From Corallococcus sp. EGB (GTDB taxonomy: Bacteria > Myxococcota > Myxococcia > Myxococcales > Myxococcaceae), in the NCBI RefSeq assembly GCF_019968905.1, contig NZ_CP079946.1, positions 5,332,001-5,396,000 of the forward strand: a DNA stretch of 64,000 nucleotides, read 5' to 3'. The position numbers were made by a program, and so were the translations under genes. Below are positions 44,245 through 52,970 of the stretch, in pieces (within the stretch, counting starts at the first letter, position 1; each line of letters opens with the position of its first letter). Below the pieces are notes generated by a model that searched no databases, was not told the DNA's origin, and saw only the letters and a program-made list of their open reading frames with translations.

Positions 44245-44288
44245 GAACGCAAACTCCTGATTGAGACCGGGGTATTGAGAGGCGGCGG

Positions 44289-44317
44289 ATAGTCGGGAAC
44301 CCGCCCCCGGTCGTCAA
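44289..44317 (-). promoter_or_regulatory. Promoter of icd-mdh
   Basis: On the minus strand TTGACG (44317-44312), a 17-bp spacer and GACTAT (44294-44289), 44 bp upstream of the icd ATG. The -10 box is imperfect. No operator-like repeat was noticed. Confidence 0.5.
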
Positions 44318-44384
44318 GGAGTTTGGCCGCACGTTTCCCTGGTTCGACGCACCCGGGGCGTGCCGCGCTTATCGCAGCCAATGG

Positions 44385-44410
44385 TCCGGAAGCAGGATCG
44401 TTTTTCCGGA
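44385..44410 (-). terminator. Weak hairpin after the HATPase-like gene
   Basis: TCCGGAA (44385-44391) pairs with TTCCGGA (44404-44410) around a 12-nt loop, just beyond the stop at 44423. Reading the minus strand there is no T-run after the stem. Confidence 0.35.
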
Positions 44411-44422
44411 TTCGGACGCGGA

Positions 44423-44965
44423 CTAGAAGCTCGCGAGCCCCGGCGCGGGCAGGAGGACGCGCACCGCCATCCCCTCCTCCAGGCGCTCCAGCGCAAGCTC
44501 GCCGCCCATGGCATCCACCAGCTCCCGGGCCCGGGCGAGCCGCCGCTGGGGGCTGCCCACGCGCAGCGGCGACAGCGCCACCGAGCGCGTCTCCCGTTCG
44601 GACAGGCTCACGCCCGGCATCACCACCTGGAAGCGCGGGCCCTCCTCCCCGAAGTCATCCGGCGGCTCCACCACCACCCGCACGGCGGCCGCGTCCGGCG
44701 GTGCCACGTCCGCCGCGTGGGCGACGAGCAGCAGCAGGACCTGCTCCAGGCGGCGGCGGCTGACCCGGGCGGGCACCGGGTCGTCGGGGAGCTCCACCGC
44801 CACCTCCACGCCGCGCAGCCGCCGCGTCGCGCCGAGCAGCCCCAGCGCGTCGCGCACGCAGGCCGTCACGTCCACCTGGAAGACGTCCGGAAGGTCCACG
44901 GGCTCCAGCCCCTGGCCACCGGAAGCGGAACCCGGCGACCCCTTCACATCCAGTGCTGCGCTCAT
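44423..44965 (-). CDS. HATPase-like (GHKL) domain protein, degenerate
   Basis: A 180-residue protein from the ATG at 44965 (GGGAG 7 nt upstream). Residues about 30 to 175 resemble the ATP-binding domain of histidine kinases. RRRLEQVLLLLVAHAADVA aligns with the N-box helix but lacks the usual Asn, and the tail ARARELVDAMGGELALERLE resembles the G2-box region followed by the last strands. No phospho-acceptor His or clear G1 box (DxGxG) is visible, so ATP binding is doubtful. It might be an anti-sigma-like or partner-binding remnant. It diverges from the PilZ gene. Confidence 0.55.
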   Translation of the reverse strand: MSAALDVKGSPGSASGGQGLEPVDLPDVFQVDVTACVRDALGLLGATRRLRGVEVAVELPDDPVPARVSRRRLEQVLLLLVAHAADVAPPDAAAVRVVVEPPDDFGEEGPRFQVVMPGVSLSERETRSVALSPLRVGSPQRRLARARELVDAMGGELALERLEEGMAVRVLLPAPGLASF

Positions 44966-45305
44966 TCGCGGCTCCCTTCCCCCAAGCCCAGAAGGGCCGA
45001 CCATAACGGCCACTTCTGACAGCCGTCCATTGCCTCGCCGCACCGGGTCTTCGCCACTTTTTCGTACTTCGGAGGGTTACAGCACTGCGCCACTTTGCTG
45101 ATAAGGATGTGCACGCAGGGTCCGTCTTGCTCCTCGGAAAACCCGTATACGTCCGGTCAAATGAGACCCAGGGTGAGTCAGGGCCAGGGACGAAAAAACA
45201 GCCCAGGCATATAAATTCGATTTGACTGTTACGGGCGAGTTCCCCAATATGTGGTCCCAGAATCCAGAGCCGTCAGCGTCTCCAGTGAATCAGGGAGGAA
45301 GTGTT
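44966..45305 (+). promoter_or_regulatory. 340-bp divergent intergenic region with PilZ-gene promoter
   Basis: This space separates the HATPase-like gene from the PilZ gene. TTGACT (45222-45227), a 17-bp spacer and CAATAT (45245-45250) form a plausible sigma-70 promoter about 56 bp before the GTG at 45306. The region from 45195 to 45225 is AT-rich for this genome. A TTG at 45222 that begins an in-frame extension coincides with the -35 box and is therefore unlikely to be the real start. No RNA gene or repeat was recognised. Confidence 0.5.
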
Positions 45306-47513
45306 GTGCTCGCAACATCGCCGACCACCAACGGTACCGCTGCCCGCAAGAGGGGAGTCCTGACGATGGACGGAGGGATCCCGGCATCCTCGAAGTTCCG
45401 GCATGCGATTGAATTCGGCAGTGGCGACGCGCTGCGCAACGTGATTCCTCTTCCTCCTGCTGAAGCGGCCCTGGACGACTCGGGCTATTCGCTGCACGGC
45501 AGCGGTCCCACGGCGATCACCTGCGCGGTGGGCCGGCCGGACGCGGTGCTGGGTGACGTGACGCGGCTGTCCCCGACGGTGGTGTGGGTGGCCCCGCGGC
45601 AGCCGCTGGCGGACATGAGCGAGTCGCGCACGTTCCCGGTGTACCTGGCCTGCAACGGCGCCACGATTGGCCCGCTCAACGGCGCCCTCATCCGGACGGA
45701 CATGGACGTCCCGAACGCGCCGGTGGGGCTGCAGCTGGTGGGCGTGACGCTGGAGCAGGGCCGGCAGATCCTGGGCTTCCTGGCGGACGCGTTGCGCCAG
45801 GGCGTGGCGGTGCCGGCGGCCTCCGCGCTGCCCGTGCAGGACATCATCACGGACGCGGAGCGGATCCGCTCCATCTTCACCGCCATCTGCGCGTCCGGGA
45901 ACAAGGGCGTGCTGCGCCGCCAGGGCCGGGTGGTGCGCATGGTGCTGGAGCGCTTCCACTCCGCCGCGGGCCAGCTGGAGTGGCGCACGGAGGAGTCCAC
46001 CCCGGACTTCGGCGAGCCGGCGTACGACATCGACGTCATTGGCTACAACTCCGCGCACCGCCTGCGCGTGGAGTCGGGCCGGATTGAAGGGGACCGCCTC
46101 TTCACTCCCCTGCCCGAGCAGCTGTTCCGCATCCGTCACCGCTGGCACCGCCGCGTCCCCGCCCCCGCGGGCGTGCACGCCCGGTTCCACCACCCGCTGT
46201 GGCGGGAGCAGGGCCTGATGCGCCGCGAGGTGCTGGACCTGTCCTTCTCCGGCCTGTGCATGCGCTGCCAGCCCCAGGACCTGCTCTTCCCCGGCCTGCT
46301 GCCGCCCCTCATCGAGCTGGAGCTGGGCGACGGCCAGCGGGTGAGCGTGCGCGGGGAGATCCGCTACGTCAGCAGCATGCGCGAGGACGGCACGGTGCTG
46401 TGCGGCCTGAGCGTGCTGCCCTACTCCTCCGACGAGGCGCGCTGGGTGCGCTTCGTGTCCCAGACGCTGTCCCCGGCCACGCGCACCAGCGAGGGCCTGG
46501 TGGATCAGCTGTGGGATCTGTTCAACCGCTCCGGCTTCTTCAGCCTGGGCGGCAGCACCCCGGCGGAGTTCGAGGAGCTGAAGCAGAACTTCGCGTCGCT
46601 CGCGAAGCGCGCCGCGGAGGTGCCGCAGCTGTTCTGCAACGCGGTGTGGCCGTCCGAGCGCGGCATCGAAGCGACGCTGTCCTTCACCAAGCCGTACCGC
46701 CACGCGTGGCTGGGCCACCAGGTGGCGAAGCGGCCTGGAAAGCCGCCGCCGGGCGTGCAGGAGGCGGGCACCATCATGCGCGACCTCTACCTGCGCACCT
46801 TCGAGCACCCGCAGAGCGACCCGGACTTCCACTGGGTGGTGGCCTACGTGGAGGCCCTCAACCCGTGGATCAACAAGGCGCACGTGAAGTACGCGCAGCG
46901 GCAGATGGAGGCCGGTTCGTCCCTGGCCTACACGCGGAAGATCCAGAAGATGAAGGCCTTCAGCCACGAGCTGACCGGCCGCGTGCACCCGTACAGCGTG
47001 GGCCCCGCAACCGCGAGCGAGCTGAGCCTGCTGGCGGCGACCGTCTCGCAGCGCTTCCCCGAGTGCTACGTGCAGTCGTTGGACCTCACGCGGGACCGGC
47101 TGGACATGGGTCCCGTGACGGCGAAGTGGAAGAGCCACGGCATGGAGCGCGAGCGCACCGTCCTGGTCGCGCGCCGCGATGGCGTCCCCTGCGCCGCCGC
47201 CGTGGTGGAGCTGGGCCAGCTGGGCGCGAACCTCTTCCGCCTGCTGGACAACACGCGCCTGTTCCCCCTGCTGGAGGATGGGACGCGCGCGTACTCGGCG
47301 CTCCTGGACGCGGCCCGCCGCTGGTACGCCGAGCGCAACCGCCCCTCCTTCCTCTACCTGCGCGAGGACGAGGGCGGCGACTACATCCAGGAGTGCGGCC
47401 TGCACGACGGCCCGGATCCCTACCTGTGGATCATCTCCTCCAAGCTCGTCCCGGACTTCCTGGAGCACATCAGCGAACTCACCATCGGGCGCCGTGGTGC
47501 CCACTCCCGTTGA
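45306..47513 (+). CDS. PilZ-domain protein with acyltransferase-like C-terminal region
   Basis: A 735-residue protein; the GTG at 45306 is chosen because GGAGG lies 7 nt upstream and a promoter precedes it. Residues about 60 to 180 look like a first PilZ-like or YcgR-N barrel. Residues about 290 to 400 form a better PilZ domain with DLSFSG (the D/NxSxxG motif) preceded by RRE, so cyclic di-GMP binding is possible, though the RxxxR spacing is not classical. The second half (about 430 to 730) has GNAT-like features, with VLVARRDGVPCAAAVVELGQ, RAYSALLDAARRWYAERNRP and YIQECGLHDGP, as in N-acyl amino acid synthases. It overlaps no gene and is followed 10 bp later by the HDO-like gene. The function is unknown. 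Confidence 0.75.
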   Translation: MLATSPTTNGTAARKRGVLTMDGGIPASSKFRHAIEFGSGDALRNVIPLPPAEAALDDSGYSLHGSGPTAITCAVGRPDAVLGDVTRLSPTVVWVAPRQPLADMSESRTFPVYLACNGATIGPLNGALIRTDMDVPNAPVGLQLVGVTLEQGRQILGFLADALRQGVAVPAASALPVQDIITDAERIRSIFTAICASGNKGVLRRQGRVVRMVLERFHSAAGQLEWRTEESTPDFGEPAYDIDVIGYNSAHRLRVESGRIEGDRLFTPLPEQLFRIRHRWHRRVPAPAGVHARFHHPLWREQGLMRREVLDLSFSGLCMRCQPQDLLFPGLLPPLIELELGDGQRVSVRGEIRYVSSMREDGTVLCGLSVLPYSSDEARWVRFVSQTLSPATRTSEGLVDQLWDLFNRSGFFSLGGSTPAEFEELKQNFASLAKRAAEVPQLFCNAVWPSERGIEATLSFTKPYRHAWLGHQVAKRPGKPPPGVQEAGTIMRDLYLRTFEHPQSDPDFHWVVAYVEALNPWINKAHVKYAQRQMEAGSSLAYTRKIQKMKAFSHELTGRVHPYSVGPATASELSLLAATVSQRFPECYVQSLDLTRDRLDMGPVTAKWKSHGMERERTVLVARRDGVPCAAAVVELGQLGANLFRLLDNTRLFPLLEDGTRAYSALLDAARRWYAERNRPSFLYLREDEGGDYIQECGLHDGPDPYLWIISSKLVPDFLEHISELTIGRRGAHSR

Positions 47514-47523
47514 GGATCCCCCC

Positions 47524-48267
47524 ATGACCAAGCCCCTCGTCGAAGAGCAGTATCTCCCCCACGTCACCGACGTCCGTCACCTGCTGGCCACCGGCCCCCA
47601 CGTCTCGACGCTGCTGGATCCGAACGTCGACCCCGCCTTGCTGGAGGCCTTCCTCATCGAGCTGTGTGCCCTGGGCGTCTACATGACGGAGCCCGTGGAC
47701 GGGTGGATCCGCCGCGCCGGTGAGGCCTGTGTGAAGATTGGGATGGTGGAGGTGGGCGAGAAGCTGATCACCCACTCCAAGCACGAGGCCGGGCACCACC
47801 TGATGATGGTGGAGGACACGAAGAACCTGGTGGCCAGCTGGAACGCGCGCCGCTTTCCCAAGCTGGACGCGGAGGCCCTGATGGCGCAGGCCCCCACCCA
47901 GGCCATGCAGGAGTACCGGCAGATCCACGAGGAGACCATCGCCGGCCCCATGCCGGGCGGCCAGGTCGCCATCGAGTATGAGATCGAGAACCTGTCGGTG
48001 GTGTTCGCGCCGCGGCTCATCGAGCAGTGCAAGCGCGTGCTGGGCCCGGAGGTGATGAACTCGCTGTCGTTCATCAAGGAGCACGTGGAGCTGGACGTGG
48101 GCCACACGGCGCTCAACGAGGTCATGCTCAACAAGCTGCTGGGCCAGAAGCCCGAGCACGCGGCGACCATCGCGAAGACGGGCGCCCGTGCCCTGGACAT
48201 CTACCTGCGCTTCTACGGCGACTGCATGGCGAAGGCCAAGCAGCTGCTCCAGTCCGCCGCGGCCTGA
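47524..48267 (+). CDS. Haem-oxygenase-like di-iron oxidase (HDO) family candidate
   Basis: A 247-residue all-helical protein. THSKHEAGHHLMMVEDT (residues 83 to 99) and KEHVELDVGHTALNE (185 to 199) carry clustered His, Glu and Asp. The motif H187-x3-D191-x2-H194 has the spacing of the third metal helix of HDO enzymes such as SznF, and E153/E155 could supply the bridging Glu. HDO enzymes oxidise amines, fatty acids or amino acids with dioxygen. Alternatives are a TenA/PqqC-like fold without metal. It begins 10 bp after the PilZ gene, so the two form an operon, and it ends 4 bp from the convergent monooxygenase gene. The substrate is unknown. Confidence 0.7.
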   Translation: MTKPLVEEQYLPHVTDVRHLLATGPHVSTLLDPNVDPALLEAFLIELCALGVYMTEPVDGWIRRAGEACVKIGMVEVGEKLITHSKHEAGHHLMMVEDTKNLVASWNARRFPKLDAEALMAQAPTQAMQEYRQIHEETIAGPMPGGQVAIEYEIENLSVVFAPRLIEQCKRVLGPEVMNSLSFIKEHVELDVGHTALNEVMLNKLLGQKPEHAATIAKTGARALDIYLRFYGDCMAKAKQLLQSAAA

Positions 48268-48271
48268 GGCC

Positions 48272-49912
48272 TCAGGCCCCCAGCTGCGCCGCGCGGCGCG
48301 AACCCCGGCTGCCCCACCGCGTGAGCGGACGGACGCCCTGCTTCAGCGCCGCGTGGACCTGCGCGACCCCCGCCTGATTCGTGGCCGCGTAGACGTAGCG
48401 GTCCGGGCGGAGGACGACCAGGTCCGAGCCGTGCTGGGCGAACCACTCGCCCAGCTTGCCCTCCAGGTCCACCACCTCGCCGGAGCGGCCCGCGCCCGAG
48501 CGCGCCGCCGGCGCCACGGACAGCCACACGCCACCGACGTCCTCCGCCATCGCCTTGGCCGCCTGCTGGACCTCCGCGGGCGCCCCCGGCCGCGTCAGCA
48601 CGGCGAAGCGGTGGCCGATGACGTCATCCAGCGGGCGCTCCCCTTCCTCGCCGTGCTCCACGCGCGGCTGCGGGAAGTACGCGCCCTCCGCGGCCTGCTT
48701 GGACTTGCCGCGCTTGCCGCCGAAGAGGAAGCCCTCCGCGTGGAAGAGGTTCGGCTTCATCTTGTACTCGCGGATGAAGGGGCCGGTGACGGGCATGTGG
48801 TACAGCAGCTTGATGAAGGCGTTGCGCGCGCGGGCCATGAACGGGCCGCCCGACGACAGCATCGCGCCCAGCGAATCCGACAGGCGCATCATCTCCGCGG
48901 CGTGCGGCCGGCGCTCCACCTCGTAGGTGTCCAGGAGCGACGCGTCCGCCGCGCCGCCCAGCACGTACGCCAGCTTCCAGGTGAGGTTCGCCGCGTCGCG
49001 CAGGCCGGAGCACAGGCCCTGCCCCAGGAACGGCGGCATCAGGTGCGCCGCGTCGCCGAGCAGGAACACCCGGCCCACCCGCCACTTCTCCGCCATGCGG
49101 CTGTGGTAGGCGTAGAGGTTGACGCTCTTCACCTTCACGGTGTCCGGGTCGATGAACGGCGCGATGATGCTGCGCACGTACTCGGGCGTCTTCACGTACT
49201 CCAGGTCCTGGCCCGGCTTCACCACCGTGTCGAAGCGCATCTCGTCGTGCGCGGTGCGCGTCACGATGCCCACGCGCTCCGGGCCGCAGGGGTAGTACGT
49301 GAAGTCCGGCGCGGACGACGGCGTCTCCACGGACACGGCCAGCGCGTGCTCCAGCGCCGTGGTGCCCTCCAGCTTCAGGCCCAGCCGGCGGCGGATGCTG
49401 CTCTTGGCGCCGTCGCACGCCAGCAGGTAGCGCGCGCGCACCGTCATGGTGCGGCCATTGACGTTGTCCTTCACGCGCACGGACACGCCGTCGTCGTCCT
49501 GCATGAAGGATTCGACTTCATGGCCGCGCCACATGCTCACGTGCGCGAAGCGCTCCAGGCCGCGGTGCAGCGACGCCTCCAGGCGCGGCTGGTTGAAGAG
49601 CGCGCCGATGTAGTGGCCGTTGGGGCGCTCCACCTTGGTGAAGTCCACCTCCGCGAGCACCCGCATCTCATCGTCCACGTAGGTCATCTTCAGGCACGGG
49701 TGGAAGCCCGGCCCCAGCTCGCCCGTGAGACCGACGGCCTGGAAGATGCGCTGCGCTTCATCGTCCGCGTTGATGGCGCGGGACTGGGTGTGCGCGGTGG
49801 TCTCCTTCTCGATGACCACGGTGCGCAGCCCGTACTGCCCCAGCAGGTTCGCCGCCATGGCACCCACCGGGCCGCTTCCGACGACGATCACATCAACAGA
49901 TTCCGGAGCCAT
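48272..49912 (-). CDS. FAD-dependent aromatic-type monooxygenase (PHBH/UbiH fold)
   Basis: A 546-residue flavoprotein from the ATG at 49912 (GGGAG upstream). FAD motif DVIVVGSGPVGAMAANLLG at the N-terminus, the DG motif in RARYLLACDGAKSSIRRRLG (about residue 160), and the second FAD motif VGRVFLLGDAAHLMPPFLGQ (about 290) are all intact. It resembles the PheA/TfdB hydroxylases, and the C-terminal 170 residues match their thioredoxin-like tail (GSDLVVLRPDRYVYA). It may hydroxylate a phenolic or polyketide substrate. It is convergent with the HDO-like gene and divergent from the methyltransferase gene across 444 bp. Confidence 0.88.
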   Translation of the reverse strand: MAPESVDVIVVGSGPVGAMAANLLGQYGLRTVVIEKETTAHTQSRAINADDEAQRIFQAVGLTGELGPGFHPCLKMTYVDDEMRVLAEVDFTKVERPNGHYIGALFNQPRLEASLHRGLERFAHVSMWRGHEVESFMQDDDGVSVRVKDNVNGRTMTVRARYLLACDGAKSSIRRRLGLKLEGTTALEHALAVSVETPSSAPDFTYYPCGPERVGIVTRTAHDEMRFDTVVKPGQDLEYVKTPEYVRSIIAPFIDPDTVKVKSVNLYAYHSRMAEKWRVGRVFLLGDAAHLMPPFLGQGLCSGLRDAANLTWKLAYVLGGAADASLLDTYEVERRPHAAEMMRLSDSLGAMLSSGGPFMARARNAFIKLLYHMPVTGPFIREYKMKPNLFHAEGFLFGGKRGKSKQAAEGAYFPQPRVEHGEEGERPLDDVIGHRFAVLTRPGAPAEVQQAAKAMAEDVGGVWLSVAPAARSGAGRSGEVVDLEGKLGEWFAQHGSDLVVLRPDRYVYAATNQAGVAQVHAALKQGVRPLTRWGSRGSRRAAQLGA

Positions 49913-50356
49913 TACTCCCTCCCGTTGTGTGCGAGCTGATCCGTTTTGAACCGTGCGACCGGACGACCGAAGCCCCCCCCGGTCGTAAGTAATAATACCT
50001 ATAAACACCGGCAACCCCACTCCGGAAACGCTGTTTTCAGCGTGATCCTGTTTGCCGCCCCCCGAGTCAGAATCACCCGATCCGCGCCCTTCCGGCCGCC
50101 TGTAAATCAAACGCACCCCTCCAGAAACCTTGCGCCCGCGGCTCATTCTTCACGGCGCATGTCTGGCTTTCGGGCAGTGATTTCCTGCAACGCTTCAAAG
50201 TTTCGCGACAGCCGCAGGGAATCGGGATCTGAGCTGGATTCCGGGGCGCTCGGATGTGTGCCAATGCCCCTGGAAGGCGCCCCTTGTACGTCGCGCGGGA
50301 CTGGGCGACAGTGCTGGAGTTTCCTTCCCCCGAGCCCCTTGGAGCGCCCAGCGATT
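49913..50356. other. 444-bp divergent intergenic region
   Basis: Between the monooxygenase (minus) and methyltransferase (plus) genes. An AT-rich patch at 49984-50010 contains TATTAT on the minus strand and is a plausible promoter for the monooxygenase. CGCTG/CAGCG around TTTT (50029-50042) forms a 5-bp inverted repeat. I see no good sigma-54 site and no RNA gene. The right half reads open in the frame of the methyltransferase, but without a ribosome site or conserved text. Confidence 0.4.
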
Positions 50357-51151
50357 ATGCCCAGACTGCAACTTTTTGAATTGGAGGATCAGCCCTGGTT
50401 CCCGAAGGTACTTCGCCGGGGCGTGACGGACTTCCTGGCGTTCGTGTGGAGCCTGTCGGACGACCGCTATTCGGAGTTCGTGAAGCGGCTCAAGGGCGCG
50501 ATGGAGGCGATGGGAGAGACACAGCTGCTGGACATGGCGTCGGGCAGCGCGGGGCCGGTGCCGAAGCTGATTGAGATGCTGGAGACGCAGGAGGGCTACA
50601 AGGCGACGGCGCTCCTGACGGACCTGTACCCGGAGGTCTCCGCGTTCGAGAAGGCGAAGGCGGCGAACCCGGGCCGCATCGACTACGTGACGACGCCGGT
50701 GGACGCGACGGCGGTGCCCGCGACGTACAAGGGCTTCCGCATCATGTGCAATTCGTTCCACCACCTGCCGCCGGACATGGCGCGCAAGGTGCTGGCGGAC
50801 GCCGTGGCCCAGCGCCGGGGCATCGCCATCATGGAGCTGGTGGAGCGGCGAGGGCCGGCCATCGCGATGACGGCGGCGGCGCTGATCAACGTGCCGCTGA
50901 CGACGCCGTTCATCCGCCCCGTGCGCGCGGATCGGCTCGCCCTCACCTACCTGATGCCGCTCATCCCCATCGCGGCGGCGTTCGACGGCGTGGTGTCCTG
51001 TCTGCGCACGTACTCCGTGGAGGAGATGCGCGAGCTCACCCAGGGCCTGAGCGACGACTACGTCTGGGAAATCGACCGGCTCACCAACCCGGGGAACCCC
51101 TTCGGCCTGATGATGCTCATTGGCCGACCCGCCAATGCCTCGCAGGCTTGA
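50357..51151 (+). CDS. Class I SAM-dependent methyltransferase-like protein
   Basis: A 264-residue protein starting at the ATG at 50357 (the ribosome site GGAG is distant, so the start is uncertain). The SAM motif is LLDMASGSAGPVPKLIEML (motif I, about residues 56 to 74), followed by an acidic strand end in ALLTDLYPEV and FRIMCNSFHHLPP, which resembles motif II/post-I text. The C-terminus holds a hydrophobic stretch (about 170 to 215) that could touch a membrane. The substrate is unknown. It is followed by a strong terminator and lies between oxidative genes of the same neighbourhood. Confidence 0.75.
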   Translation: MPRLQLFELEDQPWFPKVLRRGVTDFLAFVWSLSDDRYSEFVKRLKGAMEAMGETQLLDMASGSAGPVPKLIEMLETQEGYKATALLTDLYPEVSAFEKAKAANPGRIDYVTTPVDATAVPATYKGFRIMCNSFHHLPPDMARKVLADAVAQRRGIAIMELVERRGPAIAMTAAALINVPLTTPFIRPVRADRLALTYLMPLIPIAAAFDGVVSCLRTYSVEEMRELTQGLSDDYVWEIDRLTNPGNPFGLMMLIGRPANASQA

Positions 51152-51170
51152 GTGGCCTGTCAGCAGGAGG

Positions 51171-51205
51171 TCACTGACGCCCCGGGCCGACGCGGGGCGT
51201 CGTGA
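51171..51205 (+). terminator. Terminator after the methyltransferase gene
   Basis: GACGCCCCG (51176-51184) and CGGGGCGTC (51193-51201) form a perfect 9-bp stem with an 8-nt loop. TCAC/GTGA extends the stem past a one-base bulge, and a short ATTT follows. Confidence 0.7.
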
Positions 51206-51258
51206 TTTCCGGGATTGAAGGGGGTTCAATGGCCGCTCCATCAAGGAGGAGCAGGCTC

Positions 51259-51459
51259 ATGGAATGGCTCGAATTCAAGCGCTGGTCACCCGAGGTCCAG
51301 CACGCGCTGGCACTACAGGCGGCCCGGTTGGGCCAGACGGCGATGCACGCCGAGCCGCCGCGGCCGTCCGCGACGATGGTCGCCGCGCACCGCCTGTGCA
51401 CGCTGCTGCGGCAGTACCCGCGAAGCAACCCCTGGGGACACCCGGCGTCGGAGTGCTGA
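51259..51459 (+). CDS. Small basic protein of unknown function (66 aa)
   Basis: The ATG at 51259 lies behind AAGGAGGAGC, a very strong ribosome site, and opens a 66-residue protein (MEWLEFKRWSPEVQHALAL, ending HPASEC). It is rich in Ala, Arg and His with a single terminal Cys and no membrane segment. I recognise no family. It lies between the methyltransferase terminator and the P450 gene, which is on the opposite strand. The ribosome site is the main support for coding. Confidence 0.6.
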   Translation: MEWLEFKRWSPEVQHALALQAARLGQTAMHAEPPRPSATMVAAHRLCTLLRQYPRSNPWGHPASEC

Positions 51460-51527
51460 GGCACGGATGAAGTGCCCGCCCCGTCCGTGGGAGCCCCACG
51501 GGCGGGACGGGAGCGTGCGGGTGGCGC

Positions 51528-52853
51528 TCAGGTCCCGGTAGGGGTCCAGGTCACGCGCAGGTGCTGGATGGAGCGGATGGTCAGCGACTGCGTGGTGCCG
51601 AAGTCCGGGGTCTCCTCCAGGCGCAGGTCCGCGAGCTGATCCAGCAGCAGGTTGGTGGCGATCTGCGCCTCCAGCCGGGCCAGCGGCGCCCCGATGCAGA
51701 AGTGGATGCCCCGCCCGAAGCCCAGGTGCGTCGGGTGGCTGCGGTTGATGTCGAAGTGGTCCCCGTCCGGCAGCAGCGCGGGGTCACGGCTTCCGGACGC
51801 GTAGAGCAGCAGCAGCCGCGAGCCCTTGGGCAGCGCGACGCCCGCCAGCTCCACGTCCTCCGTGGTGGTGCGGATCATCCCGTGCGCCACCGAGTCGAAG
51901 CGCAGCGTCTCCTCGATGAGGTGCGGCACCAGCGAGCGGTCCTCGCGCAGCCGCTGCCAGAGGCCGGGCTGGAGCAGGGCCTGCTTCCAGCACTGGGCGA
52001 GCAGCGCCGTGGTGGTCTCATGGCCCGCGGCCAGCATGCTGCCGGCGATGGCGATGATCAGCTCCGGCAGCGTGAGCGCCTCGCCGTCCGCGTCGGTGGT
52101 GACCAGGTAGCTGATCAGGTCGTCGCGGGGCTCGTCCTCGCGGGCGCGGATGAGGCGGGCGACGTAGTGCTGGAAGGTGACCCAGCTGCGCGCCAGCGGC
52201 GGCTGCTCCTCCGCGGGGACGCGGGTGAAGATCATCCGGAAGAAGTCGTCGCACCAGCGCTTGATGTCCGCCATGTCCTCCTGGGGCACGCCCACCATGC
52301 CCAGGATGACCCGCACGGGCAGCGGGTACGCGAACTCCGTCACCAGGTCCGCGTGTCCCCGGCGCGCGAATGCCTGGACGAGCTCCTCGGAGACGGCGCG
52401 GATGGGGCCCTCCTGCGCGGCGATGCGCTGGGCGGAGAAGCCCCGTCCCAGCAGCTTGCGCAAGCGGGTGTGCGCGGGCGGATCCGAGTTGATCAGGCTG
52501 TCCGCCAGGGGATAGCCCTCGGCGAGCACCGAGAGCGTCTGGGGCGACAGCACCGAGCCCATGTTGCCCAGGTCCGAGGACGAGTAGCGCGCTGGATCCT
52601 TCAGCACGTGGCAGATGTCGTCGTAACGGCTCACCAGCCACATCCCCAGCATGGGGTTGTAGCTGACGGGCGCGTCCTGCCTCAGCTGCGCGTAGAACGG
52701 ATGGGGGTCTTCGACGTGCGGTCCCGCGAACGGGTTGTACTGGGCGCCCAGATGGGGGCACTTCATGGCGCCAAGAGCCGCGTTGGCGCGCGCGTCGACC
52801 TGGCTCGCTTCGGACGGCCCTTCCACCTTCACTGCTTCCACTGCGGTACTCAC
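51528..52853 (-). CDS. Cytochrome P450
   Basis: A soluble bacterial P450 of 441 residues starting at the GTG at 52853 (GAGAGGAAG upstream, 7-nt spacing). The I-helix reads LAAGHETTTALLAQ (about residue 272), the K-helix ExxR is EETLR (about 316), and the haem loop is FGRGIHFCIGAPLA with the ligand Cys (about 385). All signature residues are intact. No ferredoxin or reductase gene is next to it. It is transcribed towards the small protein and the methyltransferase and lies downstream of menE behind a terminator, so it is a separate unit. The substrate is unknown. Confidence 0.95.
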   Translation of the reverse strand: MSTAVEAVKVEGPSEASQVDARANAALGAMKCPHLGAQYNPFAGPHVEDPHPFYAQLRQDAPVSYNPMLGMWLVSRYDDICHVLKDPARYSSSDLGNMGSVLSPQTLSVLAEGYPLADSLINSDPPAHTRLRKLLGRGFSAQRIAAQEGPIRAVSEELVQAFARRGHADLVTEFAYPLPVRVILGMVGVPQEDMADIKRWCDDFFRMIFTRVPAEEQPPLARSWVTFQHYVARLIRAREDEPRDDLISYLVTTDADGEALTLPELIIAIAGSMLAAGHETTTALLAQCWKQALLQPGLWQRLREDRSLVPHLIEETLRFDSVAHGMIRTTTEDVELAGVALPKGSRLLLLYASGSRDPALLPDGDHFDINRSHPTHLGFGRGIHFCIGAPLARLEAQIATNLLLDQLADLRLEETPDFGTTQSLTIRSIQHLRVTWTPTGT

Positions 52854-52889
52854 CGGTAGCTTCCTCTCAGGATCCCCCCACAGTGGAAT

Positions 52890-52911
52890 ATTATAACCCA
52901 ACCTGACAGGT
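52890..52911 (-). promoter_or_regulatory. P450 promoter with palindrome
   Basis: On the minus strand TATAAT (52895-52890) is a perfect -10 box 36 bp upstream of the GTG. ACCTG-A-CAGGT (52901-52911) is an 11-bp palindrome just upstream of it, within the promoter spacer. No good -35 box is visible, which suggests an activated or repressor-controlled promoter. Confidence 0.5.
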
Positions 52912-52944
52912 CTACTCAGCGAGTCCTGAGAGCCCCACCCATCC

Positions 52945-52970
52945 AGAAAACAGGGTTCTCACGACCCTGG
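52945..52970 (-). terminator. Terminator of the men operon
   Basis: CAGGGT (52951-52956) and ACCCTG (52964-52969) pair around a loop that contains the menE stop codon. On the minus strand the stem is followed by TTTTC. Short but well placed. Confidence 0.55.

Follow-up and report, generated by a model that had tools for sequence, protein, structure and literature searches.

A paired PilZ-acyltransferase-like gene and oxidase-candidate gene in a mosaic gap between icd and menE of Corallococcus

Introduction

Six neighboring genes in 7.5 kb of a Corallococcus genome raise the question of whether they form one biochemical system or came to lie side by side through separate events. They are found in the window analyzed here, a stretch of 64,000 nucleotides at positions 5332001-5396000 of a single-contig 9.43-Mb genome. 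Among named genomes, those most similar to it at this locus belong to Corallococcus species (92-94% identity for gene A). A first-pass annotation regarded the genes as an oxidative and acyl-transfer neighborhood and suggested a small tailoring route for a lipid or aromatic signal, perhaps linked to the adjacent men genes. The features of the locus, in window coordinates, are as follows:

45306..47513, plus strand: gene A, predicted YcgR-N, PilZ and tandem GNAT-like acyltransferase regions, 735 aa
47514..47523, plus strand: spacer between A and B, 10 bp
47524..48267, plus strand: gene B, heme-oxygenase-like dimetal oxidase (HDO) candidate, 247 aa
48272..49912, minus strand: gene C, FAD-dependent aromatic-ring monooxygenase of the MhpA/PRK06183 subfamily, convergent to B
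50357..51151, plus strand: gene D, SAM methyltransferase
51259..51459, plus strand: gene E, 66-aa myxobacterial orphan microprotein, MEWLEF...NPWGHPxSEC
51528..52853, minus strand: gene F, cytochrome P450

Gene Content and Constraint

Gene calls across the interval placed all six genes essentially where the first-pass annotation had put them, and its claim that PKS and NRPS genes are absent also holds, as none was found in the 7.5 kb. Gene A starts with GTG at 45306 behind the ribosome site AGGGAGGA; both are kept in Corallococcus, Citreicoccus and Myxococcus, and the length changes found downstream of this start among these genera are in frame. An alternative start, ATG at 45366, would give a protein of 715 aa. 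In comparison with other Corallococcus, the median pN/pS is 0.35 for A, 0.37 for B, 0.26 for C and 0.22 for D, and the pooled pN/pS is 0.41 for F and 0.15 for E. These values indicate six real, constrained genes; judged by them, purifying constraint acts on each gene within Corallococcus, most strongly on E, and the 66-residue protein proposed earlier, which is encoded at all 22 icd-menE loci compared below, is a real one.

The FAD monooxygenase C (PF01494, E = 4.5e-71) and the P450 F (PF00067, E = 9.7e-22) are clear by Pfam. The SAM methyltransferase D is weak in Pfam (E = 0.018), yet it carries the motif I DxASGSxG. The strand geometry, divergent in part and convergent in part, demands at least three transcription units; a sigma-70-like promoter site was looked for and none was found. 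Beyond gene F lie menE, menC and menA, all on the minus strand, with a weak terminator-like hairpin after menE (52969-52951).

Stepwise Assembly of the icd-menE Gap

Gene order was compared by tblastn at 22 named loci that have icd beside A-B, from Corallococcus, Citreicoccus, Myxococcus, Pyxidicoccus and one MAG. Genes A, B, C and E are present at all 22 loci, D is present at 11 (nine Corallococcus, Citreicoccus and one MAG) and F at 10 (nine Corallococcus and one MAG). In five outgroups (G011, G070, G074, G107 and G031) icd almost touches menE; in G112 and G090 the gap holds only a small gene and E, without A-D and F; and in g38 and g10, which are genomes of Archangium and its kin, it is occupied by several kb of unrelated genes. 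This order indicates that E is older at the icd-menE junction than A-D and F. Under the simplest history, A, B and C would have joined E in the gap before the split between Myxococcus and Corallococcus, D would have entered before the split between Corallococcus and Citreicoccus, and F within Corallococcus. The pattern of D and F also has a reading of opposite polarity, namely loss of D or F elsewhere. For both B and C the tree agrees with vertical inheritance at the men locus, and the C tree is compatible with a single recruitment that was then passed on vertically. The closest Myxococcus homolog of the P450 F sits at another locus.

Gene order across myxobacteria, the check that the first-pass annotation had called for, thus breaks up the six-gene block. 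A six-gene cluster is ruled out by the partial distribution of D and F and by the occurrence of A-B alone elsewhere, and gene order argues that the six genes are a mosaic assembled stepwise between two housekeeping operons, not one system. The suggested link to the men genes falls as well: because icd and menE are adjacent, or separated by unrelated genes, at the outgroup junctions, nothing ties the men genes in particular to A-D or F, and the hairpin after menE also speaks against such a link. What stands of the supposed oxidative and acyl-transfer neighborhood is that A and B look like acyl-transfer or oxidation genes; the reading of all six as one route does not stand.

For A, B and C at least, one could still imagine a route that tailors a single lipid or aromatic signal: C would hydroxylate an aromatic ring, the product would be finished by the HDO and the acyltransferase, and D and F would decorate it in Corallococcus. 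The constant company of A, B and C at the 22 icd-menE loci in four named genera is what such a route would predict, D and F were added to the same gap, and all the genes are of tailoring-enzyme type. However, A-B occurs elsewhere without C, D and F, with no FMO, MT or P450 adjoining the other A-B loci examined, D and F are each missing from half or more of the icd-menE loci, and the strands demand at least three transcripts. Moreover, one insertion followed by inheritance explains the company of A, B and C. We therefore regard such a route as improbable. An FMO homolog does lie 26-41 kb from A-B in Archangium-type genomes, but it is not sister to C in the tree, which speaks against an FMO tied to A-B by descent. 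These comparisons place C as a co-resident of A-B, with D and F not part of the A-B module. The idea that E is a RiPP precursor on which the adjoining oxidases act was set aside, as E occurs at icd-menE without them and is found elsewhere in Archangium-type genomes. The locus illustrates how genes that gather step by step in a permissive gap can pass for a plausible cluster, and how gene order across relatives exposes such cases.

Pairing of Genes A and B

In a scan of 79 genomes, each of the 33 close homologs of B (E < 1e-50) lies less than 100 bp after an A gene, and no close B homolog without A was seen, so the pairing is obligate in this set. The pairs occupy several unrelated loci, with two cassettes in one genome (G073), and the genes flanking the cassettes differ from one to another except in close relatives. 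Many Corallococcus and Myxococcus genomes carry a second A-B cassette, in which the end of A runs into the beginning of B; the paralogous pairs overlap by 4 bp. Together with the 10-bp spacing in the window, these overlaps make it likely, as claimed earlier, that A and B are co-transcribed as one unit. Paralogs of A without a B neighbor (the A3 group) are found in many genomes, which suggests that A can act alone, whereas B apparently cannot.

In a broader search, gene B was found in 59 of 195 genomes of the phylum, 58 of them from the same family and one (G132) from another, with A mapped for only part of the 59. In G132, which belongs to this second myxobacterial family, the first 4 bp of B overlap an A-like gene of 509 aa, whose product is 22% identical to A and colinear with it over 450 residues (BLASTP E = 0.011). 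The presence of a PilZ/AT-like A together with B in this genome rules out the view of A-B as a one-family oddity. In the literature on PilZ proteins paired with a heme-oxygenase-like protein or with a GNAT, we found no description of such a pair. A-B is a conserved, apparently unstudied two-gene unit of fruiting myxobacteria.

Gene A and Its Relationship to PixB

The Pfam PilZ match of gene A (E = 0.0016, 19.2 bits) is under the Pfam cut-off of 22.5 bits; the M. xanthus ortholog, at 23.9 bits, is over it, as are other relatives. The predicted model of A, of moderate confidence (mean pLDDT 76) and poor in parts of the first GNAT half, has the domain order YcgR-N, PilZ and a tandem GNAT-like region. 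In VIA-align comparisons, its YcgR-N part matches 5y6h (Z = 14.0, 102 residues aligned, 2.5 Å) and its PilZ part matches 4xrn_C (Z = 13.3, 104 aligned, 2.1 Å). The GNAT part matches VipF 7wx7 with Z = 12.2 over 236 residues, the rmsd being 6.0 Å across the tandem. The structure matches include PilZ proteins complexed with c-di-GMP as well as tandem GNATs; a PDB profile search found no sequence relative of A. The predicted fold thus confirms the sub-cut-off PilZ domain and bears out the earlier description of a PilZ protein with an acyltransferase-like half. The PilZ motifs RxxxR (RIRHR/RWHRR) and D/NxSxxG (DLSFSG) are intact in the window protein, and these c-di-GMP motifs are kept in nearly all full-length relatives, consistent with A being a protein that binds c-di-GMP. 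The CoA-pyrophosphate motif [QR]xxGx[GA] is absent from A in the window and is unconserved in its relatives and in PixB-like proteins. If A performs acyl transfer, as its modeled fold suggests, its use of acyl-CoA may thus be unusual, and the missing motif leaves room for it to use no acyl-CoA at all.

The nearest studied relative is PixB (MXAN_2604) of M. xanthus, which binds c-di-GMP and whose AT domain is required for motility and development (PMC8316039). PixB without its PilZ domains still restores motility, development requires c-di-GMP binding, and pixB may share an operon with two downstream genes (PMC8316039). A profile of gene A aligns with three PixB-like proteins over 446 columns that cover PilZ and AT (hhalign, 99.5%, E = 8.7e-23). 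The genes of these proteins precede those of a methyltransferase and a hybrid kinase, as do the PixB-like genes of this genome (L191) and of M. xanthus AM003 (L190), and this context, which matches the operon suggested for pixB, makes them probable PixB orthologs. Gene A is not found in that context, as it is followed by the HDO candidate and a separate PixB-like gene is present in the same genome; by profile and gene context, A is PixB-like but not PixB. In the 2021 survey 24 PilZ genes were deleted in M. xanthus, none of them between MXAN_2902 and MXAN_3585 (PMC8316039). Because icd is MXAN_3537 (PMC2875238), the icd-adjacent ortholog of A falls outside that survey.

Gene B as an Oxidase Candidate

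Gene B is over the cut-off of PF14518 (iron-containing redox enzyme), and its predicted model (pLDDT 90) has the seven-helix heme-oxygenase-like fold. The model matches 3dde (Z = 21.6), CADD 1rcw (Z = 18.6), UndA 4wwj (Z = 18.1) and TenA structures (Z about 18). HrmI is also among the fold matches. The candidate ligands E88xxH91, E151/E153 and H187xxxD191xxH194 were assigned by motif, without a metal-bound structure, and B and 3dde coincide in the alignment at the H/D/H and ExxH sites. H187, D191, H194, E88, H91 and E153 are invariant in all aligned copies from Corallococcus, Citreicoccus and Myxococcus. Predicted fold and motif thus agree with the earlier call of an HDO candidate, and they suggest that B is an oxidase with a dimetal center that is probably Fe/Fe. 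Two Archangium copies lack H194 and one copy in G073 lacks further ligands, so some lineages may be losing activity. No match to B was found among the viral contigs searched.

These ligand losses, and the Z of about 18 that TenA structures also reach, would be expected if B, though of this fold, were TenA-like or regulatory and not a redox enzyme, and A-B a signaling pair. However, the six ligand residues are invariant in the three genera aligned and PF14518 passes its cut-off, which makes a non-redox B unlikely. Another reading is that A is a c-di-GMP-controlled protein acetyltransferase that targets B, or a motility protein, with B regulated by acetylation. PixB acts on motility and protein substrates were raised by its authors (PMC8316039), who also cite the cyclic-nucleotide-gated lysine acetylases of mycobacteria. 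An action of A on B is disfavored, however, because none of the lysines in B is kept in every cassette (K86 comes closest, but one cassette has R there), and the usual GNAT CoA motif is missing from A. We give this reading little credence.

A Proposed Function for the A-B Module

The reading that we favor, with modest confidence, is that A-B is a c-di-GMP-gated acyltransferase and dimetal oxidase module, and that C, D and F reached the insertion-prone icd-menE gap later or separately. A would be a PixB-like c-di-GMP effector in which YcgR-N and PilZ bind c-di-GMP and control the C-terminal tandem GNAT-like acyltransferase. B, a dimetal oxidase made from the same transcript, would act on a small molecule, either the acceptor of the acyl group or the product that carries it. 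In this way the module could answer the level of c-di-GMP, as set in starvation or surface growth, by modifying a metabolite or a component of the envelope. This reading builds on the predicted folds, the motifs, the obligate pairing and the stepwise assembly; from these we infer the binding of c-di-GMP, the acyl transfer, the oxidation, the link between the reactions of A and B, and the substrate. Direct control of the HDO B by c-di-GMP is a tentative idea and rather doubtful; we know of no earlier HDO under such control, and B, if the idea is true, would be the first.

If the reading of A-B as a gated module is true, the pair joins an obligate oxidase partner to a protein that is probably a c-di-GMP effector and has an enzyme attached. 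It would bear on how the level of c-di-GMP becomes an output in Myxococcus development, which is largely open, and the presence of an A ortholog in M. xanthus, a standard laboratory species, makes A-B readily testable.

Comparison with Known Systems

To our knowledge, no characterized HDO is paired with a PilZ-acyltransferase, and we know of no HDO partner of HfsK, the effector of Caulobacter crescentus. The model of B shares the heme-oxygenase-like fold with the HDO superfamily (UndA, CADD, BesC, SznF, HrmI, AetD and PolF), and its candidate ligands, in HxxxDxxH, ExxH and the helix glutamates, are consistent with the 3H/3C set (PMC13108848), but its identity to solved members is about 10-18%. 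HfsK, a c-di-GMP effector from the N-acetyltransferase family, modifies an extracellular product (PMC5362036); compared by description, it differs from A in that a C-terminal extension, not PilZ, is essential for its c-di-GMP binding. Gene C resembles the MhpA-type FAD hydroxylases in passing the cut-off of NF004829, the NCBIfam model of the PRK06183 subfamily (436.8 bits against 390), but it falls under the equivalog cut-offs listed.

The closest comparison is with PixB. Identity between the two is about 21%, the PixB-like proteins have an extra N-terminal region, and their genes precede a methyltransferase and a hybrid kinase, whereas A precedes an HDO; PixB, unlike A, has been studied genetically. 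Both belong to fruiting myxobacteria, neither has a conserved canonical GNAT CoA motif, and in both a PilZ-type c-di-GMP module is followed by a GNAT-type AT domain, with profiles that align over about 450 columns.

Gene content between icd and menE

Window 44245-52958: interval between icd and menE

This interval is a site prone to insertions. Its size varies by genus, from about 0.1-0.2 kb in some to about 3-9 kb, filled with unrelated genes, in others. A terminator-like hairpin with a T tail lies at the menE stop (window 52951-52969, - strand). It could set F, the P450 gene, apart from the men genes, and this indication is weak because the region holds 7 terminator-like sites, against a mean of 3.3 in shuffled sequences. 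A record titled Comamonas sp. KCTC 72670 (L115, BNCN01000016.1) contains DNA of Myxococcus type, with the same gene order and 90% identity in icd, and looks mislabelled.

Window 51259-51459, + strand: E, 66-aa orphan microprotein with conserved ends, under strong constraint

The conserved termini of E read MEW[LF][ED]F.RWSPEV at one end and NPWGHP..[ED]C at the other. E occurs in Corallococcus, Citreicoccus, Myxococcus, Pyxidicoccus, Archangium-type genomes and relatives; its position between icd and menE is retained in some outgroups, and in Archangium-type genomes it adjoins a member of a 942-aa gene family.

Divergence of the cassette and its neighbors

L055, L056, L159-L164: FMO homolog and A-B in Archangium-type genomes
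L116:10129-10872, L119:10209-10955, L055:9332-10087: copies of B, the HDO candidate, compared for ligand loss

In several Archangium-type species the FMO homolog and one A-B cassette are 26-41 kb apart, and two M16 peptidase genes adjoin the homolog in the Archangium-type genomes read. Among candidate metal ligands of B, H194 is removed from the Archangium copies by a two-residue gap. H91, H187, D191 and H194 are all missing from the G073 copy (in L055), which is possibly a pseudoenzyme.

Other PilZ-acyltransferase genes in the source genome

G000:C1:41785-43554 (L047:7522-9564): third PilZ-acyltransferase paralog
L191:5368-7812 (G000:C1:6401442-6403811), - strand: PixB-like gene locus

The third paralog shares about 33% identity with A, has no adjoining HDO gene, and is kept throughout the family in a gene context of its own. 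The PixB-like locus, which adjoins a nadA-like gene, is probably the pixB operon, comprising the PixB-like gene, a methyltransferase and a hybrid histidine kinase.
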